Part shown: piece after piece, positions 48,981-58,772 of the stretch
Layout of the letters: the number at the start of each line of letters is the position of its first letter
Numbering within the stretch: position 1 is the first letter of the stretch
Origin: Acidobacteriaceae bacterium
Lineage (GTDB): Bacteria; Acidobacteriota; Terriglobia; Terriglobales; Acidobacteriaceae
DNA: 64,000 bases
Assembly (NCBI GenBank): GCA_030041045.1
Contig: JASHOQ010000140.1
Location: 1 to 64,000, forward strand
Direction of reading: 5' to 3'
Translations under genes and position numbers: made by a program
The notes under the pieces: model-generated
Told to the model about the DNA's origin: nothing
Seen by the model: the letters and a program-made list of their open reading frames with translations, nothing else
Database searches by the model: none

Positions 48981-49056
<76 letters not shown>

Positions 49057-49094: not shown

Positions 49095-52000
49095 TTAGCG
49101 GCCGGAGCCGGCGGAAACCGCGACCGGAATCTCCAGCGAGCCGGTGCGGGCGCTGGCCGTATCGTACACGATCATGCGCAGGGCGATCTCGCCGGCGGGC
49201 AGATCGAGCGCCAGGTGCACGGGGATGGTTTTTCCCTCGGCGTGCATCTGCGCGAATTGCTGCGCGGATAGATTTACGTCCAAGGTGCGGGCCAGGGAGT
49301 TGCGCTGCTTGCCCGCTGGGTCGAAGGCCACCAGCGCGCACTCGAGCTGCGCGCGGCGTGAGCCATCGGCGGACTCAGAAAAGGTGAGGCTCTGCGGGTC
49401 GATATTGAGGTCCACTCCATAGCGGTGCGCGGGCTTCAAGGCGTCAGCGGTTGCGCTCGCCGGTCCAGCTGCCAGCGCGGCGCCGGTCGCCGGGGAGTCG
49501 GGCTGCGCATCGCTTTCGGGGAGCACCCGCGCCTCAAACAGAATCTGCGTGGCCGGCGGGGCGCCCGGCAAAGCTGCCGCGAGCATGGGCGCGGGCGCGC
49601 TGCCGGGTGCGCCGGCAACAGGCGCGGCGGCCTCGTTGGCGTAGTAGCCGCGCCGGTAGGCCAGCTGATAGCCGCCATCGACCTTTACCGCGATGCTGTG
49701 GAATTGGGGTCCGCGCGCGCCGGTCTTCCGTTGCGGCGGGACGTAGCTGAGAGCGTAGTAGCTCGAGTCCGTGGCCACGATCTCTGCCATGGCTTTCCTG
49801 AGGTCGTTGCCGGTTGAATACACGTGGCCGCCGGTCTCTTGGGCGATCGCGTTCATGGTGTCCTTTTCCTGTGCGGTCTGCACCCCAAAAACCTGATTTT
49901 CGCGACTCACTGCGGTATCTGTGGCATCGCCTTCTAACGGTTGTTCAGGCGACGGGAAGGCTGGGGGCGGAACGGACGTTGAGCCTGCGGTCGGCGCCAT
50001 CAGCACGCCGCGCGCATCCACGGGATACACGGCCACGCGCGCCGCCGCCAGAAGTACGCTGGTCCGCTCCATGTCGAGTGAGTTGTCGCGCAGATCGCTG
50101 GCGGGTGTGCGCAGGTTCGCATCGGGCGAGAGGCCGATGGGAAACGAGCCCGAGAGCCAGATCACGTTCTTGCGCCCCGGAATGGCGGCGAGATAGCGCG
50201 CCAATTCGCTGAAGGCTTCGAGGGTCATGGCCGCGCGCTGGTTGGTGTCGTAGGCCTTCATGTCGGCGGCGAACTGCATGATCTGCGACGCGAGCCAGAT
50301 GGTTCCCGGGTCGCCGTTGGTGTTGATGCTCGAAGCCGCCTGCTCAAGGTCAGCGGACATATCGGAGCTGCGGCCCGAACCGACGCCCGACGCGCTCTGC
50401 GGTTTCGCTCGCTCACCTTGGAGAGCCTTGAGTAGTTGCGCAACGTCAGTGGTAAACCCGGCGGCCATGCGCAGGCGCGAGGAGAGCGTGAAGATGGCGA
50501 GGGGCGAGCCGGGCCGAATGGAGCCGAGATAAGCGATCATGGCGCGCCGCACCTGCTCCTGATCGCTGCTCGGTGTGTTCAGCGCGTCGAGCAGCAGCAC
50601 GTTTACGGAGCCGGTCTCGGGATAGGTGGGGACGTTGGAGTAAGTCCCCGCAGGCAAGACAGGAGGTTCGGCAAGTGCGGTTTTTGCCGCAGGCTTCAAC
50701 TCCTCGAACGACGCGATCGGCTGCTCGTGCCCATCCTCATCAATATGGAAACGGTCGCGGCTCAATCCAGCGACTGGGCGGCCGTGGTCGGTGACCACCA
50801 CATCCACGAGAACCAGTTGGGCATTACTTTCGAGAACTGCGCCGGAAGGAAGAGCGCTGGTGGTGGTGCGGGCGATTGCAGCATCGGGCGCTGGCGTCGC
50901 GGGCGCGGAAGTTGGTGAGAGAGGCGCGGTCGCGGCCGATTCCGCAGGTGCAGCCGGTGCGGGCGATGAATCTGCAGCGGGTGATGCCGGCGCTTCTACC
51001 GGCGCCGCGGCTGGTGAAGTTGCGGCAGGGGCCGCGTTGGCGGCCGTGGCTTCGGCCGGGGTCACGGGCGCCGCAGGTGTGGCCGCCGGGGCCGACGCAG
51101 ACTCGGGAGTTGCAGTGGCCGCGGCCGCGGCTGGCGGCGTCGCGCTCACCGCAGGCGCATTGCCGTTGCCGCCGGCTGCGTTATTGGCCAGGATCTGTAC
51201 CTCGGAGCGGAGTTCGTGATAGTGGGTAAAGGCGACGTCGTTGAGCTCCGTCTGCAAAGGCACGGTGGGGCCGGGAGCTGCGTTGGGCGCTGGAAATCGC
51301 GAGAAAGCCACGCCGTGCACGGGGCAAATGACCGTGCGGCCGGCGATGGTGACCGGCGCAAACTCCACCAGGATGGCGGCGAGCAGCCCCGCGTGCGGAG
51401 AGGTCATATCCGCGATCTCGCTGAGGCGCAGAATTTCGCCCGTGGCCGGATCGATCTCGATTTCCCCGTGGTACGCAGGGGCGAGGGTGAGCGTCTGGCC
51501 CCCTTCGCTGATATTCACCGCGAAATGAGATTTGCCTTCCGGCACGGAGAATTGGAAGACCGCCTCCGGTTCGCTCGCACCCTGTTCCCAGCGCAGCCAG
51601 CCAATCTTGCTCTGCAGCGCGTCGCCTAGAACCACGGCGAGAATGGGCCCGAACTCTCCGCTGCTGGTGAGCCCGATCCGGGGCTCTTTTTTCTGTTTCG
51701 CCTCGTCCGGCTCCTCGTGGCCGTTGCGGTAGGTGACGGTGGCGCTGAATTGGCCGGCAAGGTGGACGGCTTCGATCTCGTTTAAAGTGTCGACACGAGG
51801 CTCCTTGAGAGAAATCGAGCCCAGGGACTCGTGCTCGTCGACTCCGCCCGCTCCCGGAGAGCCCACGGAGTAATCCAGGCGCTGGGAGATCAGGCTTTCA
51901 AAGTGGGTGGTGTCGCGCGAGGCGAAGAAATCGGGCAGGCGCGCCATGGTGGCGCGCACATATTTCGCGGCCTGGGTGAGAATCTGCACCTGGGTTGCGG

Positions 52001-52304
52001 CGTCCGGCTCGGGATCGCGGAGCAGGTCGTCGACGGGCGGATTCTGAAAGGCCGAGAGATCGGCCAGCCGCATCAGCTCGTCGTGGGTGCGGGCGCCGGG
52101 AAACGTGGCTTCCCACTTTGCCAAACGCGCCGGGCTCACGCGCTCCGTGAGCTGCACGGCGTCCAGCTCGCCGGCCACCTTGCCGTCCGGCTTGCCCTCG
52201 AGCTTGGAGAGCAACTGCTCCACCTGGTCGATGGAGAGCAGTTTGGCTGCGAACGCCGGCGTGGCGAGGACGCAGAGAACGAGAAGCGTGGCCCGTTTGC
52301 GCAT
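49095..52304 (-). CDS. secreted protein with Acidobacteria-type VWFA-related domain
   Basis: 1069 aa from the ATG at 52304; signal peptide MRKRATLLVLCVLATPAFAA. The N-terminal 370 residues (LLSIDQVEQLLSKLEGKPDG ...) have no named family. An Ala/Pro-rich linker of about 120 residues follows. Then comes the VWFA-related part: LVLVDVVVTDHGRPVAGLSR, VNVLLLDALNTPSSDQEQVR (MIDAS-like) and RKNVIWLSGSFPIGLSPDAN. It ends with a beta-rich domain (GPQFHSIAVKVDGGYQLAYR). Proteins like this are expanded in acidobacteria and their ligands are unknown. It starts 94 nt after the KASIII-like gene on the same strand. Confidence 0.92.
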   Translation of the reverse strand: MRKRATLLVLCVLATPAFAAKLLSIDQVEQLLSKLEGKPDGKVAGELDAVQLTERVSPARLAKWEATFPGARTHDELMRLADLSAFQNPPVDDLLRDPEPDAATQVQILTQAAKYVRATMARLPDFFASRDTTHFESLISQRLDYSVGSPGAGGVDEHESLGSISLKEPRVDTLNEIEAVHLAGQFSATVTYRNGHEEPDEAKQKKEPRIGLTSSGEFGPILAVVLGDALQSKIGWLRWEQGASEPEAVFQFSVPEGKSHFAVNISEGGQTLTLAPAYHGEIEIDPATGEILRLSEIADMTSPHAGLLAAILVEFAPVTIAGRTVICPVHGVAFSRFPAPNAAPGPTVPLQTELNDVAFTHYHELRSEVQILANNAAGGNGNAPAVSATPPAAAAATATPESASAPAATPAAPVTPAEATAANAAPAATSPAAAPVEAPASPAADSSPAPAAPAESAATAPLSPTSAPATPAPDAAIARTTTSALPSGAVLESNAQLVLVDVVVTDHGRPVAGLSRDRFHIDEDGHEQPIASFEELKPAAKTALAEPPVLPAGTYSNVPTYPETGSVNVLLLDALNTPSSDQEQVRRAMIAYLGSIRPGSPLAIFTLSSRLRMAAGFTTDVAQLLKALQGERAKPQSASGVGSGRSSDMSADLEQAASSINTNGDPGTIWLASQIMQFAADMKAYDTNQRAAMTLEAFSELARYLAAIPGRKNVIWLSGSFPIGLSPDANLRTPASDLRDNSLDMERTSVLLAAARVAVYPVDARGVLMAPTAGSTSVPPPAFPSPEQPLEGDATDTAVSRENQVFGVQTAQEKDTMNAIAQETGGHVYSTGNDLRKAMAEIVATDSSYYALSYVPPQRKTGARGPQFHSIAVKVDGGYQLAYRRGYYANEAAAPVAGAPGSAPAPMLAAALPGAPPATQILFEARVLPESDAQPDSPATGAALAAGPASATADALKPAHRYGVDLNIDPQSLTFSESADGSRRAQLECALVAFDPAGKQRNSLARTLDVNLSAQQFAQMHAEGKTIPVHLALDLPAGEIALRMIVYDTASARTGSLEIPVAVSAGSGR

Positions 52305-52398: not shown

Positions 52399-53349
52399 TC
52401 ACGCTGGCAGCGCCAGCAGCGCGCCCCAGTTGAGGCCGGCGCCGAAGGCTGAGAACACCACCGGGCCGGTGAGAGGGGCGGTGTGCGCGCGACGCCACTC
52501 GGCGGCGGCGATGAGCAGCGAAGCCGAGGAAGTGTTGCCGCAGCGGGCGATGTTCACGAAGAAACGCTCGCGCGGCACTTTGAGGCCGGCGGCGACGCGC
52601 TCGATGAGGTTGAGATTGGCCTGATGCAGCAGAAAGACCTGGACGTCAGCCGGGGTGAGCGCATTGCGTGCGAGCAGGTCGTGGATGGCGCGCGGGATTT
52701 TGCGGTAGGCCTGCAGGATGACGGTTTTGCCCTCCATGAGAATGCGGCCGTTCTCGATCTTGAGAATTTCAGCGGCGCTGCCGTCGGTCAAGAGCAGAGA
52801 ATCGGCGATGCGCAGGCAGACGGTCTGCGGATCGGCGCAGCCGGATTCTAAATCGACGAGACACGCGCCGGCGCCGTCGCCAAAGAGGATCGCGGTGTCT
52901 TTGCCTTGGGGAGTGCGTTCGATGCGGCGGGACATGATCTCCGCGCCGACGACGAGAACTTTGCCGAAGCGCGGTGCGAGATCGTTGGCCAGCGCGAGCG
53001 CGATGAGCGAGCCCGCGGAGGCGACGGGAATGTCGAGTGCGGGTGTGGATGCGAGGCCGAGGGCTGCGGCGATCTGCGAGGCGGGGCCAGGGGAGAGATG
53101 GTCAGCGGAGCCCGAGGAGACGAGGATGAGGCCGAGTTGATTGGAAGTGACGCCGGCGTTGGCGAGGCAATCCTGCGCGGCGGCGAGGCCGAGCGAAGCG
53201 ACGGTTTCTTCATCCGCTGCGTAGCGGCGCTCTTCGATTCCGGAAACGGAGAGAATCCACTCGGGCGTGGCGCCCACGAGCGAAGCCAATTCGTCATTGC
53301 CCACGCGGCGCGCGGGCAGATGCGAACCGAACGCGCGAATGTAGGCCAT
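52399..53349 (-). CDS. KASIII (FabH)-like acyltransferase with Ser in place of the catalytic Cys
   Basis: 316 aa. The thiolase-fold layout is clear: TPEWILSVSGIEERRYAADE, then the active-site stretch LDIPVASAGSLIALALAND where FabH has the AACxGF motif; Ser111 (codon TCC) replaces Cys. The other catalytic residues remain: His in VFLLHQANLNLIERVAAGL and Asn in ARCGNTSSASLLIAAAEW. GAGLNWGALLAL closes it. A Ser nucleophile is known in DpsC, which primes a polyketide carrier without decarboxylative condensation. Here it would plausibly load the neighbouring ACP. Last gene of the five-gene operon. Confidence 0.9.
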   Translation of the reverse strand: MAYIRAFGSHLPARRVGNDELASLVGATPEWILSVSGIEERRYAADEETVASLGLAAAQDCLANAGVTSNQLGLILVSSGSADHLSPGPASQIAAALGLASTPALDIPVASAGSLIALALANDLAPRFGKVLVVGAEIMSRRIERTPQGKDTAILFGDGAGACLVDLESGCADPQTVCLRIADSLLLTDGSAAEILKIENGRILMEGKTVILQAYRKIPRAIHDLLARNALTPADVQVFLLHQANLNLIERVAAGLKVPRERFFVNIARCGNTSSASLLIAAAEWRRAHTAPLTGPVVFSAFGAGLNWGALLALPA

Positions 53350-53585
53350 TAAGCCGATTTCGCAGAGATGTAGGAGTCGACTTTTTCGAGGGTGTCGAAC
53401 TTGCGCGCGGAGAGATCGGAGTCGGGGATGGAGACGCCGAACTCCTCTTCGAGGGCGGCCACAAAATCGGTGAGCGCAAAGGAGTCGAGCAGGCCGGAGA
53501 CAAAAAGCGATTCGTCGGCGGCGGGGGCGAGATTTTTTCCCGAGACGCGCTGCAGCACTTTAAGGATTCGTGCTTCCTGGCCCAT
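53349..53585 (-). CDS. acyl carrier protein of the MBOAT-SGNH operon
   Basis: 78 aa. The phosphopantetheine site is Ser35 in VSGLLDSFALTDFVAALEEE; the helix-loop layout and acidic character (EEEFGVSIPDSDLSA) are standard. It carries an acyl thioester on a 4'-phosphopantetheine arm. The start lies 26 nt inside the preceding SGNH gene, and the stop overlaps the KASIII start (TAATG), so all three are tightly coupled. It is clearly separate from a fatty-acid-synthesis cluster, so it is a dedicated carrier, analogous to DltC. Confidence 0.93.
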   Translation of the reverse strand: MGQEARILKVLQRVSGKNLAPAADESLFVSGLLDSFALTDFVAALEEEFGVSIPDSDLSARKFDTLEKVDSYISAKSA

Positions 53586-55023
53586 TCGTGGCTCCTTGCT
53601 TGGCTTGCTGGACGGCGGTTTCAGTCTCCGGGGAGTGGCGATCTTTATAGGATTGGAAGCCGGCCATGAGATCGGCCATGAAAGCGTCGGCGAGGGCGCG
53701 ATAGCCGTCGCCTGTGAAATGAGTATGATCGGGCTGCGCCCAGCCGGCGTAGACCCACTCCTGCATGGCGCCGGCCCCGCCCATGCGCTCCTGCCAGTCC
53801 CAGTAGGCGCAGTCGTGGGTGCCACAGACGGCGCGCTGTGCTTCAACGATGCGGCCGGTGCCGTCGTAGTCGCGCCAGGCATGGTGGCGAAGCACGAAGC
53901 GGTCACCGGGACCGATGACGAGGATCGAGGACTCAGGCACGTATTGGTGGATGGTGTCGATGAGCCTGGCGAAGGTCTGCTCGTAACTCTGCTCGACCCA
54001 GTCTGGGCTGGCGGCCTCATTGGTGCCGTAGGCCAGCACGATCAGGGAGGGCGAGTTGTCCTTGAGATAAGAGGAAAAGAGCGACTGGTTCCACTTGAGG
54101 ATGAGCGGGGCTTCCGCGCCATTGATGCCGATCGACTCCCAGGTGACGCCGGGCTGCGTGGCCACCCAGCCGAGCAGGGTGACGGGCGCGGCGTCTTCGG
54201 TGGTGACTTGGAAGTGGTGATCGCCGGCGGAGCAGGGATAGCGGAAGGTGCCGGCGCCGATCTGGTCGGCTGCGGTCTGGATCTCGACGGGGTCGCCGTC
54301 GTTGTCAGTAAAGCGCAGGCTGCCGCCGCCGGGCTGCTCGAGATATTGGAGCTCGAGCTCGGTGCAGGGCGCGTCGAGGGTTACCCACTCGCCGGCGCGG
54401 TCGGCGCTGATGCTGATGCCGCCTAGCCCCAGGTCGCCGTCGCCGAGGTCAAGGAATTTGTTGCCCTGGGTCTTCCAGCCCGGCGACTGGGAGCGGGAAG
54501 AACCAATGATGCGATAGCCGGCGAAAGGGTGCCCCGAGTAGGAGTAGCCGATGCCGCCGTCGCCGAATTGCGCCTGGAAGAGGCTGCGGGTTTCGGCCGT
54601 GAACTCGTCGGCGGCGGTGTGGGAGTCGCCCCACTGCAGAACGCGCAGCGTACCTGTGGCCGGCTCGCCCGAGTGCCGTTCCATTTCGCGCGAGGCAAGC
54701 TGGGCGTAGAAGCCGCCGAGCGCGTCATCATTGGCGATGGCGTGGGGCGCGGGCTCTTTGAGGCGGGCGCCGATCTCTTCAACCAGCGCGGCGCGGCGTT
54801 CGGGGCTCACGCGCAGCGCGTAGTAGTGAACGCGGGTGCGGGCAGTGCGCCTGCGGGCGTTGGCTGTGCGGCTGGCGCGGGCGGCCGTGTGGTGCGCGGA
54901 TGAGGCCGCCGGCGGCGCGGAGGATTTCTTCTGGGCCGGCGTGGTTTGCGCGCAGGCAGGAAGCAGCGCGAGGGCAGCGAGCGCCGGCAGGAACGCCGCT
55001 CCAGGAAAACGGCGGGCGTTCAT
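53560..55023 (-). CDS. SGNH-type envelope lipoprotein of the MBOAT operon (SGNH-B)
   Basis: 487 aa. The N-terminus FLPALAALALLPACAQTTPA has a lipobox-like LPAC (Cys24), so it is a probable lipoprotein. A Lys/Arg/Ala-rich linker precedes the SGNH core: block I LRVLQWGDSHTAADEFTAET, block III IVLAYGTNEAASPDWVEQS, and DHTHFTGDGYRALADAF with the catalytic His. A beta domain is inserted between blocks I and III (GGGSLRFTDNDGDPVEIQ). It is likely an acyltransferase or esterase acting on a surface polymer. Starts in ATGA overlap with SGNH-A. Confidence 0.92.
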   Translation of the reverse strand: MNARRFPGAAFLPALAALALLPACAQTTPAQKKSSAPPAASSAHHTAARASRTANARRRTARTRVHYYALRVSPERRAALVEEIGARLKEPAPHAIANDDALGGFYAQLASREMERHSGEPATGTLRVLQWGDSHTAADEFTAETRSLFQAQFGDGGIGYSYSGHPFAGYRIIGSSRSQSPGWKTQGNKFLDLGDGDLGLGGISISADRAGEWVTLDAPCTELELQYLEQPGGGSLRFTDNDGDPVEIQTAADQIGAGTFRYPCSAGDHHFQVTTEDAAPVTLLGWVATQPGVTWESIGINGAEAPLILKWNQSLFSSYLKDNSPSLIVLAYGTNEAASPDWVEQSYEQTFARLIDTIHQYVPESSILVIGPGDRFVLRHHAWRDYDGTGRIVEAQRAVCGTHDCAYWDWQERMGGAGAMQEWVYAGWAQPDHTHFTGDGYRALADAFMADLMAGFQSYKDRHSPETETAVQQAKQGATNGPGSTNP

Positions 55024-56549
55024 GGCGTCCCGGCTTTCTGGCCGGCCGAAGAGCGAGCGGGGCCGGGGGTCTTGTCCTGCGCGGCGGCCTGCGCCTCAGC
55101 AGGTTTGGGCGCGGCCGGCGCGGCAACCGGGGGGAGCGCGATTCCTTGCTGCATCTTCCAACGATCATACCGCAGGCTCAATTGCTGAATGAACAGAGTA
55201 GCCACAATGGCGGCCCCCTGTGGCGTGGGATGCAACAGGTCGGCCGTGACCAGGCGGGGACTGGCCGCGAACCAGCGCGCCATGGTGCCGCTGGAGCCCA
55301 TGGCGTCGTAGGTGTCAAAGAAGGCGCAGTGGGTTTCGGCCGCCACCTGGCGCTGGATGTCGACGATTTCAGGGATGGTGCTCATGGTCTCTATATCGTC
55401 AAGTCCCTGACGTTCGCCACGGTCCATGGGGCTCATGATGAGGATAGATGCATTGGGCGCGGCCTTGCGGATGCGGTCGATGGCGAGACGCAGCTCGGAC
55501 GCGTACTGTTTGTGGACAAAATCGCCGAAGCTGCTTTCGTTGGAGCCGTAGTTGACCACGATGAGCGCAGGGCCGGCGTGGTCGAGCTCCTCATGCCAGA
55601 TGCCGGGTGAGAGCACGCGCGCCAGGACGCTGGTGGTGGCGCCATTGAGACCGAGGCTGTCATACAGAAGTCCCGTCGACCCGCGGCGGAAGTCGATGCC
55701 GAAGAGGGTGACCGTGCCTTGCGTGACGAGAAGTGTGACCATCTTTGTGCCCGGCGGGAGCGGGACGCGGAGGGAGACGGCGGCCAGCGTGCCGGCGCTG
55801 GTGGCCTGCGCCGCGATCTGGACGCCGTCGGCCTCGACGGCGAAGACGCCGCCGCCGGGATGGGCGAGGTATTCGATTTCGGCGGCCGATTGCGGAGATT
55901 CGGTGAGGGTGAATTTGCTTGAGGCGCCGGGCTGGCCTTCAAACGCCGCGCCGCCCAGGCCATAGACGCCTTCGCGGATCAGGCCCACGCCGGTGCGGAT
56001 CTTCCAGCCGTGATCGCTTATCTCCACGCCGCGATGGCCGTACCAGGCCCAGGGCTTGGCGATGAGCGTGTAGCCGCGGCCGGCATCGCCGAAGCGGTCC
56101 TGCAACTGGGCGCGGATTTCGCCGGTGATAAGGTCTGCGGTAGTGGGCGAGTCGCCGTAATGGAGGACGGTGACCACGCCGGGAGACTTCGCCTGTTCGA
56201 GCTTCCAGAGTGCGGCGAAAAAGGGATCGAGCTCGTGGGAGTCGTCCTCGAGGAGGGGTGACGGCGGGGGCAGGTTGATGGGAACGGGGATTTGAACGAT
56301 CGGAGGAACGGGACGCGCGGGCCAGCGCAGGCGGAAGGCCTGGGTGAAGACTCCGGGGGCGTATCCCTTGGAGTGGGTGCGGACGCGCCAGGCGATCAGC
56401 GCCGCGACCGCGACCAAAATGGCCAGTGCGGTTTTGAACGGGAAGCCGCGGCTTGGGTGCCGGAACCCCGGCGGAATGGCACGGAGCGGCAAACGGCTGG
56501 AAGCGCGGGAATTGGAGGCGCGGGATTTGGAGCCGCTAGAAATTGCCAT
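55020..56549 (-). CDS. membrane-anchored SGNH-type protein of the MBOAT operon (SGNH-A)
   Basis: 509 aa from the ATG at 56549. A basic N-terminus and one membrane helix (FKTALAILVAVAALIAWRV) put the catalytic part in the periplasm, as in DltD. SGNH blocks: VVTVLHYGDSPTTADLITGE, ALIVVNYGSNESSFGDFVHK and ADLLHPTPQGAAIVATLFIQ. A beta-sandwich insertion (GGGVFAVEADGVQIAAQ) matches that of SGNH-B, so the two are paralogues. The C-terminus is a Pro/Ala/Lys tail. The start overlaps the MBOAT 3' end by 14 nt. Confidence 0.9.
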   Translation of the reverse strand: MAISSGSKSRASNSRASSRLPLRAIPPGFRHPSRGFPFKTALAILVAVAALIAWRVRTHSKGYAPGVFTQAFRLRWPARPVPPIVQIPVPINLPPPSPLLEDDSHELDPFFAALWKLEQAKSPGVVTVLHYGDSPTTADLITGEIRAQLQDRFGDAGRGYTLIAKPWAWYGHRGVEISDHGWKIRTGVGLIREGVYGLGGAAFEGQPGASSKFTLTESPQSAAEIEYLAHPGGGVFAVEADGVQIAAQATSAGTLAAVSLRVPLPPGTKMVTLLVTQGTVTLFGIDFRRGSTGLLYDSLGLNGATTSVLARVLSPGIWHEELDHAGPALIVVNYGSNESSFGDFVHKQYASELRLAIDRIRKAAPNASILIMSPMDRGERQGLDDIETMSTIPEIVDIQRQVAAETHCAFFDTYDAMGSSGTMARWFAASPRLVTADLLHPTPQGAAIVATLFIQQLSLRYDRWKMQQGIALPPVAAPAAPKPAEAQAAAQDKTPGPARSSAGQKAGTP

Positions 56550-57903
56550 AGACAAACGGAGCGGAGCCGCGGCCGGTGAGGGTTTGAATGAGCAGGACGA
56601 GAGCGGCAAGACCGAGCCCCTGCACCCAGAAAGGAGCTCGGGCCGTGATGCGCGCCCCGCGGTCGAACCAGCCTGAAGGCAGACATTGGAGAAGGGCCGC
56701 GGCGATGAGCATGAGAGCGACCGGCAGAGTCAGGTTGGCGTGCGACCAGGTGTGGCGGCCAAGGCCGCGCAGGATCTGGAGCGCGCCGGGGAGCGTGGAG
56801 GCGCGGAAAAAGATCCAGGTAAAGCACACAAAATGGAAGGTCAAGAGGCCGGCGAGGAGTTTGGCCCACCACGCCGGCGAAGGCACGGCGCGGCGCTTCT
56901 TCCAGGCGAAGACCACCCCCAGGGCGAGCCCGTGCAGCGTGCCCCAGATGAGAAAGTTCCAGGAGAGGCCGTGCCAAAGGCCGCCGAGCATGAAGGTGAG
57001 CAGAAAGGCATAACCATAGGAGAGGATGGGGCGCTTGCGGCGCTTGGGAAAGAAATCGAAGAGATAATCGCGGAGCCATTCAGAAAACGTAATGTGCCAC
57101 CGGCGCCAGAACTCGGCAATGTTGACGGCAAGATAAGGGCGGCGGAAGTTCTCGGGCAGCTCGATGCCCAGGAGCTTGGCTGCGCCGCGGGCGATGTCCG
57201 TATAGCCGGAAAAATCGAAGAAGAGCTGGAGCGCGTAGCCGTAGATCCCGAGAAGAATCTCGCTGCTCGAGTAGAGGGCGGGGGTGTCGAAGATGCGGTC
57301 GACGAGGTTGTTAGCGAGGAAGTCGGCGACCAGAAGTTTCTTCACCAGGCCGGTGCCGATGAGCAGCAGCGCCTGGGCGCCATCTTCGGTGGTGAGCAGG
57401 AAGGGAGCGGTGAGCTGGTTAAGCAGCTTGCCCATGCGCGGGATGGGTCCGGCGGTGATGGAAGGAAAAAAGAGCGCGCCGGCAAGATAGGCAAGCAGGC
57501 TGCGCGTGGGCCGCATTTCACGCAGATAAAGGTCGATAGTATACGTAAGCGATTGAAAACAATAGAAAGAAAGCGTGAGCGGCAGCAGCCAGCGCCAGCT
57601 CGCGTGGGTGACGCGGGGAACCAGCTTGATGGTCAGCAGCAGGCCCAGATTGACAGCGAGGGAGATGCCGAGCAGGAAGCGGCGAGGGCCCGAATGCTTG
57701 AAACGGCCAAGCCCGAGTCCGACACTATAGTCGATGAGCGCGGCCGCGGGCAATGCCAGGTAAATGAGGCTGAAGTGCGCGAGAAAAAGGAGATTGGCCG
57801 CCACCAGAAGCACGAGTTGCAAAGGGCGCAGACGGACCGAGAGCCAGAAGAGCAGGCAAACCGCAGCCAGAAATGCAAAAAAAGGAGCGGAACTGAGGGG
57901 CAT
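56536..57903 (-). CDS. MBOAT membrane O-acyltransferase (AlgI/DltB-like)
   Basis: 455 aa from the ATG at 57903; a GTG at 57915 would add four residues. About 11 helices. The signature FRRPYLAVNIAEFWRRWHIT, then FSEWLRDYLF, and the catalytic-His block LLTFMLGGLWHGLSWNFLIW are those of AlgI/DltB/PatA proteins. MBOAT enzymes pass acyl groups from a cytoplasmic donor (CoA or carrier protein) across the membrane to a polymer or lipid. First gene of the operon with two SGNH proteins, an ACP and a KASIII-like enzyme, divergent from rlpA. Confidence 0.95.
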   Translation of the reverse strand: MPLSSAPFFAFLAAVCLLFWLSVRLRPLQLVLLVAANLLFLAHFSLIYLALPAAALIDYSVGLGLGRFKHSGPRRFLLGISLAVNLGLLLTIKLVPRVTHASWRWLLPLTLSFYCFQSLTYTIDLYLREMRPTRSLLAYLAGALFFPSITAGPIPRMGKLLNQLTAPFLLTTEDGAQALLLIGTGLVKKLLVADFLANNLVDRIFDTPALYSSSEILLGIYGYALQLFFDFSGYTDIARGAAKLLGIELPENFRRPYLAVNIAEFWRRWHITFSEWLRDYLFDFFPKRRKRPILSYGYAFLLTFMLGGLWHGLSWNFLIWGTLHGLALGVVFAWKKRRAVPSPAWWAKLLAGLLTFHFVCFTWIFFRASTLPGALQILRGLGRHTWSHANLTLPVALMLIAAALLQCLPSGWFDRGARITARAPFWVQGLGLAALVLLIQTLTGRGSAPFVYGNF

Positions 57904-57915
57904 GGATGATTCCAC

Positions 57916-58172
57916 TCCAGCTTACCCCAGGTAAAGCCGCGAGACCGAAAACCGGCATCGAAGCAAATTGGCCTGGAACACTTGTTGCTATGGTTCATGC
58001 CGGACCGGATCGAGCGAGTGAAGACCGTCCAGGCCCTGTTTCCTGCCGGTCGGGACTGCGGCGGCTCCTGGAGCATTCTTTTAACTCGAAAGTTTTGTCT
58101 TTTAAATTCAAATAGATACGAATGAAAAAGTGGAAAACCGGCAGGGAGAGGGAAGCGGTGGTTTAGTAAAAT
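57916..58172. promoter_or_regulatory. divergent control region between the MBOAT operon and rlpA
   Basis: 257 bases. The part nearest rlpA (58076-58125) is strikingly AT-rich (TCTTTTAACTCGAAAGTTTT and TCTTTTAAATTCAAATAG), with CTTTTAA repeated 23 bp apart. This is a likely place for the rlpA promoter and perhaps an activator site, but no clear -35/-10 pair can be set. Confidence 0.4.
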
Positions 58173-58772
58173 ATGCGAATGCTTCGACGCCAGAATTCCC
58201 CCTATACGGCTCCGCCGAAGCCAGGCTGGTTTTGGCCTGTGGCAGCCATCCTGTCGGTAGCCATGGCGGCGGTGGTCTTTTGGGACTCGACGCTCACAGT
58301 GCAGGCGGACGCACCGCTGGCCCGGCCGGCTGCAACTTTGCCCCCGGCAGCTCCTCCGGCGAGCGTTCTCACCGCAGCGCGCCCGTCGGCCAAAGCGCAC
58401 ATCCCCTTCGAATCCCTGCATGGGATCGCCACCTGGTACGGCGAGATGCGCCAGGGACACTGGACGGCCAGCGGCGAGCGGTTCGACATGATGGCTATGA
58501 CGGCAGCGAATAATACTTTGCCCTTCGGCACCCTGCTGCGGGTGGTGGACCTCAGGAACCATAAATCGGTGCTGGTGCGGGTGAACGACCGCGGCGCGCT
58601 ACCGGAAGGCCATGTGATCGATCTTTCCTACGCAGCGGCCGAGCAGCTCGGCATTGTGAAGCTGGGCGTGGCCCCGGTCCGGCTCGAGGTGATCTCGCTG
58701 GGCAAGGCTGACGGCCGGCAGGCATCCCCGCCTTCGCAGGCAACCGCTTCCGCGAGCCATCCCGCGCCGTAG
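58173..58772 (+). CDS. rlpA: RlpA-like double-psi beta-barrel protein (septal ring lytic transglycosylase family)
   Basis: 199 aa; ATG at 58173, with another at 58179. One N-terminal membrane segment (FWPVAAILSVAMAAVVFWDS), a Pro/Ala linker, then the DPBB domain: GIATWYGEMRQGHWTASGER, FDMMAMTAANNTLPFGTLLR and VLVRVNDRGALPEGHVIDLS with the catalytic Asp region. RlpA cleaves naked glycan strands at the septum. There is no SPOR domain, so septal targeting may rely on another partner. Confidence 0.93.
   Translation: MRMLRRQNSPYTAPPKPGWFWPVAAILSVAMAAVVFWDSTLTVQADAPLARPAATLPPAAPPASVLTAARPSAKAHIPFESLHGIATWYGEMRQGHWTASGERFDMMAMTAANNTLPFGTLLRVVDLRNHKSVLVRVNDRGALPEGHVIDLSYAAAEQLGIVKLGVAPVRLEVISLGKADGRQASPPSQATASASHPAP

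Follow-up and report, generated by a model that had tools for sequence, protein, structure and literature searches.

The window analysed here is a stretch of 64,000 nucleotides from an Acidobacteriaceae bacterium (assembly GCA_030041045.1, contig JASHOQ010000140.1, positions 1 to 64,000), and its positions 52399–57903 hold five minus-strand genes. These encode, in order, a membrane-bound O-acyltransferase (MBOAT), two SGNH proteins (SGNH1 and SGNH2), an acyl carrier protein (ACP) and an enzyme related to β-ketoacyl-ACP synthase III (KASIII), and the gene calls on the window overlap successively by 14, 4, 26 and 1 nt. The set belongs with the MBOAT-SGNH systems for envelope acylation. Its membrane and periplasmic parts resemble PatA and Ape1, its reliance on a carrier recalls the Dlt pathway, and its proposed KASIII-like loader is new as far as searched. 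With slightly better than even confidence, we read it as an MBOAT-SGNH machine for envelope O-acylation in which a dedicated carrier protein replaces coenzyme A (CoA) as the acyl donor. A narrower version, held tentatively and a little short of even confidence, is a carrier-fed branch of peptidoglycan O-acylation. Here, a Ser-type KASIII and a private ACP would stand before a PatA-type MBOAT, the donor site would have been switched from CoA to ACP by loop remodelling, and the acyl group would thereby be gated or changed beyond acetyl.

In the proposed route, Ser111 of the KASIII-like enzyme would accept the acyl group of an acyl-CoA, and the enzyme would hand it on to the ACP's phosphopantetheine arm. 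Acyl-ACP would then dock at the cytosolic face of the MBOAT and the acyl group would move to Tyr452, within the sequence FVYGNF, by analogy with the chemistry of PatA and DltX. Membrane-anchored SGNH1 would receive the acyl group on Ser134 and esterify a glycan hydroxyl, most likely of peptidoglycan, and exported SGNH2 may remove or redistribute the ester. The first-pass annotation of this DNA had drawn the same general path, from KASIII-loaded ACP through the MBOAT to SGNH transfer onto a surface polymer. Judged from sequence, that path appears likely, and the polymer can be narrowed, probably to peptidoglycan.

The five-gene set in Acidobacteriota

KASIII and the MBOAT were each sought in 399 genomes of the class, and the two scans are taken as the same draw, as the same genome handles are named in both. 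Bit cut-offs were chosen after a gap in the scores was seen: at least 224 for KASIII (next score 164) and at least 296 for the MBOAT (next score 247). By these cut-offs KASIII is present in 81 genomes, the MBOAT in 80 and both in 76, a co-occurrence for which Fisher's test gives 3e-70 when phylogeny is ignored. The two genes lie within 6.5 kb of each other in 53 of the 76 genomes and within 20 kb in 2 more; in 21 the blocks are more than 20 kb apart, as in G317 (77 kb) and G111 (171 kb), or on separate contigs. The MBOAT and KASIII blocks thus tend to stay in the same genome even where they are unlinked. Five KASIII genomes fall below the MBOAT cut-off: in three (G071, G086 and G197) a more distantly related MBOAT adjoins ACP and KASIII, one has its MBOAT in two contig pieces (G200), and no MBOAT was found in the fifth, G231, a genome that is 80% complete.

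Neighbourhoods of the KASIII gene were read at 54 loci, of which 46 come from the 81 class genomes (a choice guided by score and spread, not a random one) and 8 from others; locus L010 was dropped as a duplicate of L041. A same-strand carrier gene lies within 400 nt of the Ser-type KASIII in 54 of 54 loci, and the order MBOAT-SGNH1-SGNH2-ACP-KASIII on one strand is found in 30 of the 41 KASIII loci that were fetched. These comparisons indicate that the five-gene set is a conserved unit of Acidobacteriota and that, within it, carrier and KASIII form a module that stays together. The design is one of two modules: a three-gene export/transfer block (MBOAT, SGNH1 and SGNH2) and a two-gene loading block (ACP and KASIII). 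The first-pass view that five overlapping minus-strand genes form one unit was borne out: the coordinates and overlaps were confirmed, the pair of marker genes recurs in 76 of 399 genomes instead of one, and KASIII is accompanied by the MBOAT in 76 of 81. Gene order and Ser111 also recur across Acidobacteriota, the Cys enzyme of G493 apart.

Beyond the class, 396 genomes were covered by a phylum scan, with whole-genome sampling confined to Acidobacteriota. Ser-type KASIII with ACP was found in other classes in G527, G559, G578 and G594, and a Cys version in G493. Eleven further, lower-scoring KASIII loci are Cys-type in the tree, and no MBOAT adjoins KASIII in any of them. In one of these genomes, G694, a block of SGNH2-MBOAT-SGNH1-ACP lies on a contig other than that of KASIII. 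In G527 (locus L088, 8780–10105), the Ser-type KASIII and ACP lie amid genes that by eye resemble a nonulosonic-acid surface glycan cluster, which is a possible second use of the loading module.

The SGNH pair and the probable acylated polymer

Both SGNH proteins resemble Ape1. The Ape1 structures 4k3u and 8gkd are matched by SGNH1 at E 1.6e-12 and by SGNH2 at 6.6e-28 (phmmer, for SGNH2 to 4k3u), and the AlphaFold model of SGNH1 (pLDDT 83.6) has Ape1 4k3u as its best match in the PDB, with a TMt of 0.87 over 369 alignment columns. Ser134, Asn337 (block III), Asp437 and His440 of SGNH1 are present in 35 of 35 rows, as are Ser134, Asn335 (block III), Asp432 and His435 of SGNH2 (35/35). Block I reads GDSP in SGNH1 and GDSH in SGNH2, each in 35/35. 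SGNH1 has an N-terminal membrane helix and SGNH2, by eye, a signal peptide. The likely split is between SGNH1 as transferase and SGNH2 as esterase.

No match to the DltD family was found for either protein in Pfam or NCBIfam scans and the best structures are those of Ape1, so a DltD-type assignment was rejected. The second SGNH protein had been annotated as a lipoprotein. It is indeed a second SGNH, but its lipoprotein status is not conserved: the window copy has an LPAC-like box and most orthologues show, by eye, a plain signal peptide and a Lys-rich stretch.

A gene of the RlpA family lies divergent from the MBOAT in the window and in 14 of 14 other loci of family f1, to which the window belongs, making 15/15; locus L011, a named Acidobacteriaceae metagenome-assembled genome (MAG), is counted as f1. 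This neighbour is also kept in G317, where ACP and KASIII sit elsewhere. RlpA was sought in L011, L041-L080 and L087-L110; L122, L123 and L126 were left out, and L097 has 148 bases upstream. Peptidoglycan O-acetylation has been described as a control on lytic transglycosylases (available text of PMC6627197). Two SGNH proteins of the Ape1 type, that is, of a peptidoglycan esterase, together with an RlpA neighbour point to peptidoglycan as most likely the acylated polymer.

Alternatively, the same machine could use its SGNH pair to acylate exopolysaccharide, lipopolysaccharide or cellulose. Such a target has precedent, as alginate, cellulose and secondary wall polymers are among the substrates of MBOAT-SGNH pairs (PMC12148441, in the part available), and the G527 module sits among apparent surface-glycan genes. 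Set against this are the Ape1 matches of both SGNH proteins, the RlpA gene at every f1 locus and the lack of a glycosyltransferase recognisable by eye, with no family scan made, in the ten neighbour clusters that recur most often. We regard a polymer other than peptidoglycan as unlikely, while giving it real weight.

Proposed carrier loading and the donor side of the MBOAT

The KASIII-like enzyme keeps the FabH fold. Its AlphaFold model (pLDDT 93.3) has a TM score of 0.93 to E. coli FabH 1hn9 and matches 9ka6 with Z 47.5 and an rmsd of 1.3 over 305 aligned residues; in two FabH profile models it reaches 239 of the 249 bits needed and 218 of the 292 needed. Ser111, His242 and Asn272 occupy the positions of FabH Cys112, His244 and Asn274, which gives Ser-His-Asn in place of the Cys-His-Asn triad. 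The Ser is present in 42 of 42 rows of a first alignment and in 47 of 47 with further loci, and His242 and Asn272 are kept in the same 47, from which the Cys row of G493 is excluded; class-scan KASIII rows below 165 bits were left out of this row-by-row reading. The substitution of Ser for Cys with His and Asn retained, first noticed in the window alone, is shared by all of these rows. In a tree, the 55 Ser-type KASIII tips fall into a single clade (support 1.0), separate from the FabH sequences that were added to it, and the sister of this clade consists of the Cys enzymes of G493 and G694 (0.996). The window copy is 80–81% identical to the KASIII of two named Acidobacteriaceae MAGs. A plasmid search returned 22 records, with identities of at most 36.3% among the 12 matches listed. 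A housekeeping FabH role was rejected, as the genome has another, Cys-type FabH on C95 (41.8% identical to E. coli FabH).

Two FabH residues with a role in carrier docking are replaced: Lys214 in 47/47 rows (by Arg in 7) and Arg249 in 46/47 (by Asn in 44). Among W32, R36 and R151, which form the CoA site of the E. coli enzyme (PMC8036411, available part), Trp32 is kept in 43/47 rows and a basic residue stands at the position of Arg151 in 38/47, while Arg36 is replaced in all 47. DpsC, an enzyme with a Ser-His-Asp triad, self-acylates and hands acyl groups to its ACP, a behaviour that the accessible portion of PMC12664062 describes as not seen for FabH-like enzymes. For the KASIII-like enzyme of the operon we infer acyl-CoA as input and acyl-ACP as output. 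Neither of two programs has DpsC, CerJ or ChlB3 in its list of 50 structural matches to the KASIII model, which does not exclude these enzymes. Acyl chain length cannot be taken from the position of Phe87 (Ser in the window, Phe in 33/47), which was rejected as too indirect.

If the enzyme were still condensing, it would make a β-ketoacyl group on the ACP and the MBOAT would export that unusual acyl. FabH is the nearest fold, its His and Asn are kept in 47/47 rows and a Cys sister exists, all of which would suit condensation; yet the nucleophile is Ser across the clade, Arg36, Lys214 and Arg249 are replaced, and the five genes include no malonyl transferase or ketoreductase. Condensation is accordingly rather improbable.

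The MBOAT scores 185 bits with the DltB model, under its cut-off of 375, and its best solved structure is DltB (3.3e-26); His270 and His311 are kept in 33/33 rows. The C-terminal motif FxYxxF is present in 54/54 full-length MBOAT rows of the operon group, a set in which G364 is counted twice and G185, G364 and G383 are included though loader-free in the assembly. In PatA the Tyr of FxYxxF is auto-acylated and passes the acyl group to the SGNH partner, whereas in the Dlt pathway the motif is on DltX (PMC12148441, available part). As the motif is the MBOAT's own, no DltX is needed, and in architecture the protein resembles PatA and not the DltB/DltX pair.

A cytosolic loop that follows WLRDY aligns with helix HC of DltB, the docking place of DltC (PMC11035591, available part). 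At this loop, LGG[NS][RK] is found in 7/7 MBOATs from other phyla, including the gonococcal one taken to be PatA, and in 19/20 class paralogues without adjoining ACP or KASIII, in total 26 of 27 comparison MBOATs. It is missing from 53 of the 54 operon-group rows, 46 of which have LP instead, and the sole exception is G527. Replacement of the donor loop fits what is expected if the donor changed from CoA to a carrier. A donor switch would be expected to leave such a trace, yet the pattern is correlative and shared descent may account for part of it. The genome's second MBOAT (L138, C12, 6394–7992) ends in FLYWQF and has a donor loop that is neither LGG nor LP; no ACP or KASIII was found in the 8.7 kb covered there.

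The ACP aligns without gaps with DltC of solved structures, its phosphopantetheine Ser35 is kept in 25/25 aligned rows, and DltC is its best NCBIfam profile, at 40 of the 68 bits needed. In the bacterium's own genome none of 8 matches lies above the DltA model cut-off, and these matches are weak and partial, in agreement with the first-pass statement that a DltA-like ligase is absent. The proposed mapping on DltBCD survives in part: the logic of a carrier without DltA stands, but the SGNH proteins are Ape1-type instead of DltD and the MBOAT is PatA-like with its own FxYxxF. It is very unlikely that ACP and KASIII work in lipid or secondary metabolism and that their linkage to the MBOAT is historical; the 21 genomes with distant or unlinked blocks would agree with this, but the MBOAT is still there in 76 of 81 KASIII genomes, and carrier and KASIII are jointly absent from four MBOAT-only genomes. 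A Dlt-like aminoacyl pathway, in which an unlinked ligase charges the ACP and KASIII does something else, has the slimmest chance, for although ACP and MBOAT score best with DltC and DltB models and weak partial DltA matches occur elsewhere in the genome, none is above the cut-off and KASIII adjoins ACP in 54/54 loci.

Several observations weigh against a carrier-fed machine acting on peptidoglycan. The four MBOAT-only genomes (G173, G185, G364 and G383) have no KASIII or ACP orthologue in the assembly: the ACP search gave at best 27.1 bits there, against at least 113.7 in four module-bearing genomes, and the MBOATs of G185, G364 and G383 have the LP loop despite the missing loader. The spread is patchy: within the window's own genus, KASIII was found in 4 of the 35 genomes sampled. 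In another class, G493 (L091, 3674–9479) has the full operon in the order SGNH2-MBOAT-SGNH1-ACP-KASIII with a Cys KASIII, and because the whole operon occurs there with Cys, Ser is not essential to the system's logic. An LGG-type MBOAT lies 3 kb from the Ser-type KASIII and ACP in G527; G559, of the same family, has an MBOAT fragment ending in FIYFSY and an LGG-type MBOAT. The helix by which DltB contacts DltC (contacts from the available text of PMC11035591) is not conserved in this MBOAT, and ACP docking deduced from DltB contacts was rejected for that reason. The KASIII of A. baumannii likewise lacks Arg36 and Arg249 (PMC8036411, in part), so that replacement of these two residues alone is no proof. 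Neither SGNH protein is PatB-like, with no Pfam match of the PatB (DUF459) type at E 0.1, and RlpA was found beside the MBOAT in 0 of 36 searched rows of other families.

Gene layout and comparison with known systems

The features of the operon are collected in the table. A promoter and terminator scan of 57800–58250 gave no match. On the strand of the operon, a gene for an acidobacterial VWA family protein (TIGR03436, 235 bits) occupies 49095–52304 and begins about 95 nt past KASIII, provided that the ATG at 52304 is its start; no homologue was found among the open reading frames of the loci searched for RlpA (L011, L041-L080 and L087-L110). A tRNA-Met (48981–49056, minus strand) lies within a mechanically listed long open reading frame that is probably no gene.

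Table. Features of the proposed acylation operon and its divergent neighbour in the window.
Feature	Position	Strand	Details
MBOAT acyltransferase, PatA/DltB kin	56536..57903	-	455 aa; Pfam PF03062 2.6e-25
MBOAT cytosolic donor-side loop LFDFFPKRRKR	57031..57063	-	aligned with DltB helix HC
MBOAT C-terminal FVYGNF, acyl-Tyr shuttle motif FxYxxF (Tyr452)	56539..56556	-	in 54/54 full-length rows
SGNH1	55020..56549	-	509 aa; Pfam Lipase_GDSL_2 1.1e-16; proposed O-acyltransferase, Ape1 fold
SGNH2	53560..55023	-	487 aa; Pfam Lipase_GDSL_2 5.9e-12; Ape1-like; proposed editing esterase or second transferase
DltC-like acyl carrier protein (ACP)	53349..53585	-	78 aa; Pfam PP-binding 3.1e-9
ACP phosphopantetheine site Ser35	53481-53483	-	kept in 25/25 rows
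KASIII-like enzyme, proposed acyl-CoA:ACP loader	52399..53349	-	316 aa; Pfam ACP_syn_III_C 1.2e-24
KASIII-like Ser111 (in place of Cys)	53017-53019	-	FabH Cys112 position
RlpA-family lytic transglycosylase gene	58173..58772	+	TIGR00413 124 bits (cut-off 82), Pfam DPBB_1; divergent from MBOAT

No description of an MBOAT with ACP and KASIII was found in titles and the beginnings of abstracts, among which the subscription literature is thinly covered. For the loader, the closest parallels are the natural-product acyltransferases DpsC, CerJ and ChlB3, in which a KASIII fold also serves acyl transfer. DpsC shares the Ser nucleophile and loads its ACP (PMC12664062, accessible portion). The triads differ: that of DpsC is given as Ser-His-Asp (same source) or Ser-His-His (PMC9573744) and that of ChlB3 is Cys-His-Asp, whereas the operon enzyme has Ser with His and Asn at the FabH positions, FabH as its nearest fold and an envelope MBOAT block as its partners. 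The comparison with DpsC is one of these published triads. The operon enzyme looks like a case of a condensing enzyme turned acyl loader through the change from Cys to Ser.

With the Gram-positive Dlt pathway (DltA, DltB, DltC, DltD and DltX) the operon shares an MBOAT, a DltC-like carrier, an SGNH enzyme and the acyl-Tyr shuttle motif. It differs in that no DltA was found, the MBOAT carries the shuttle on its own chain, both SGNH proteins are of the Ape1 type and a KASIII-like loader is proposed.

SGNH/MBOAT blocks of Bacteroidota and Alphaproteobacteria likewise place an MBOAT beside one or two SGNH genes, with FxYxxF where the MBOAT is complete. In Bacteroides finegoldii (L134) and Parabacteroides distasonis (L137), two SGNH genes are followed by the MBOAT with no carrier or KASIII nearby, and their GDSF/GDSH pair parallels SGNH1 and SGNH2. 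By profile, neither ACP nor KASIII was found in any of seven plasmid-collection records, the gonococcal one included, with flanks of at most 8 kb, three of them shortened by the end of the record. As these seven outside MBOAT-SGNH records show neither gene in the flanks read, the loading module looks to have been added within Acidobacteriota, in other classes as well as in this one.

The PatA-PatB-Ape1 system of Gram-negative peptidoglycan O-acetylation also combines an MBOAT whose C-terminus bears FxYxxF with SGNH genes of one operon, an Ape1-type SGNH among them. In the gonococcal record, which is unannotated, the presumed PatA reaches 352 bits with the MBOAT profile; a nearby SGNH protein, presumed to be Ape1, reaches 183 bits with the SGNH2 profile and has GDSH. 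According to the available part of a 2025 paper on PatA and PatB (PMC12148441), PatA takes acetyl-CoA and has no carrier protein, and, Dlt apart, MBOAT/SGNH pathways likewise work without a carrier protein and evidently draw on acyl-CoA. The operon, in contrast, adds ACP and a Ser-type KASIII, has a changed donor-side loop and carries a second Ape1-type protein in the place of PatB. With KASIII and MBOAT together in 76 of the 399 class genomes, it looks like an exception to the carrier-free rule for non-Dlt MBOAT/SGNH pathways. As such, it offers a natural experiment on how an MBOAT chooses between CoA and a carrier protein, a choice for which a short loop is the candidate, and it makes peptidoglycan O-acylation in Acidobacteriota testable.

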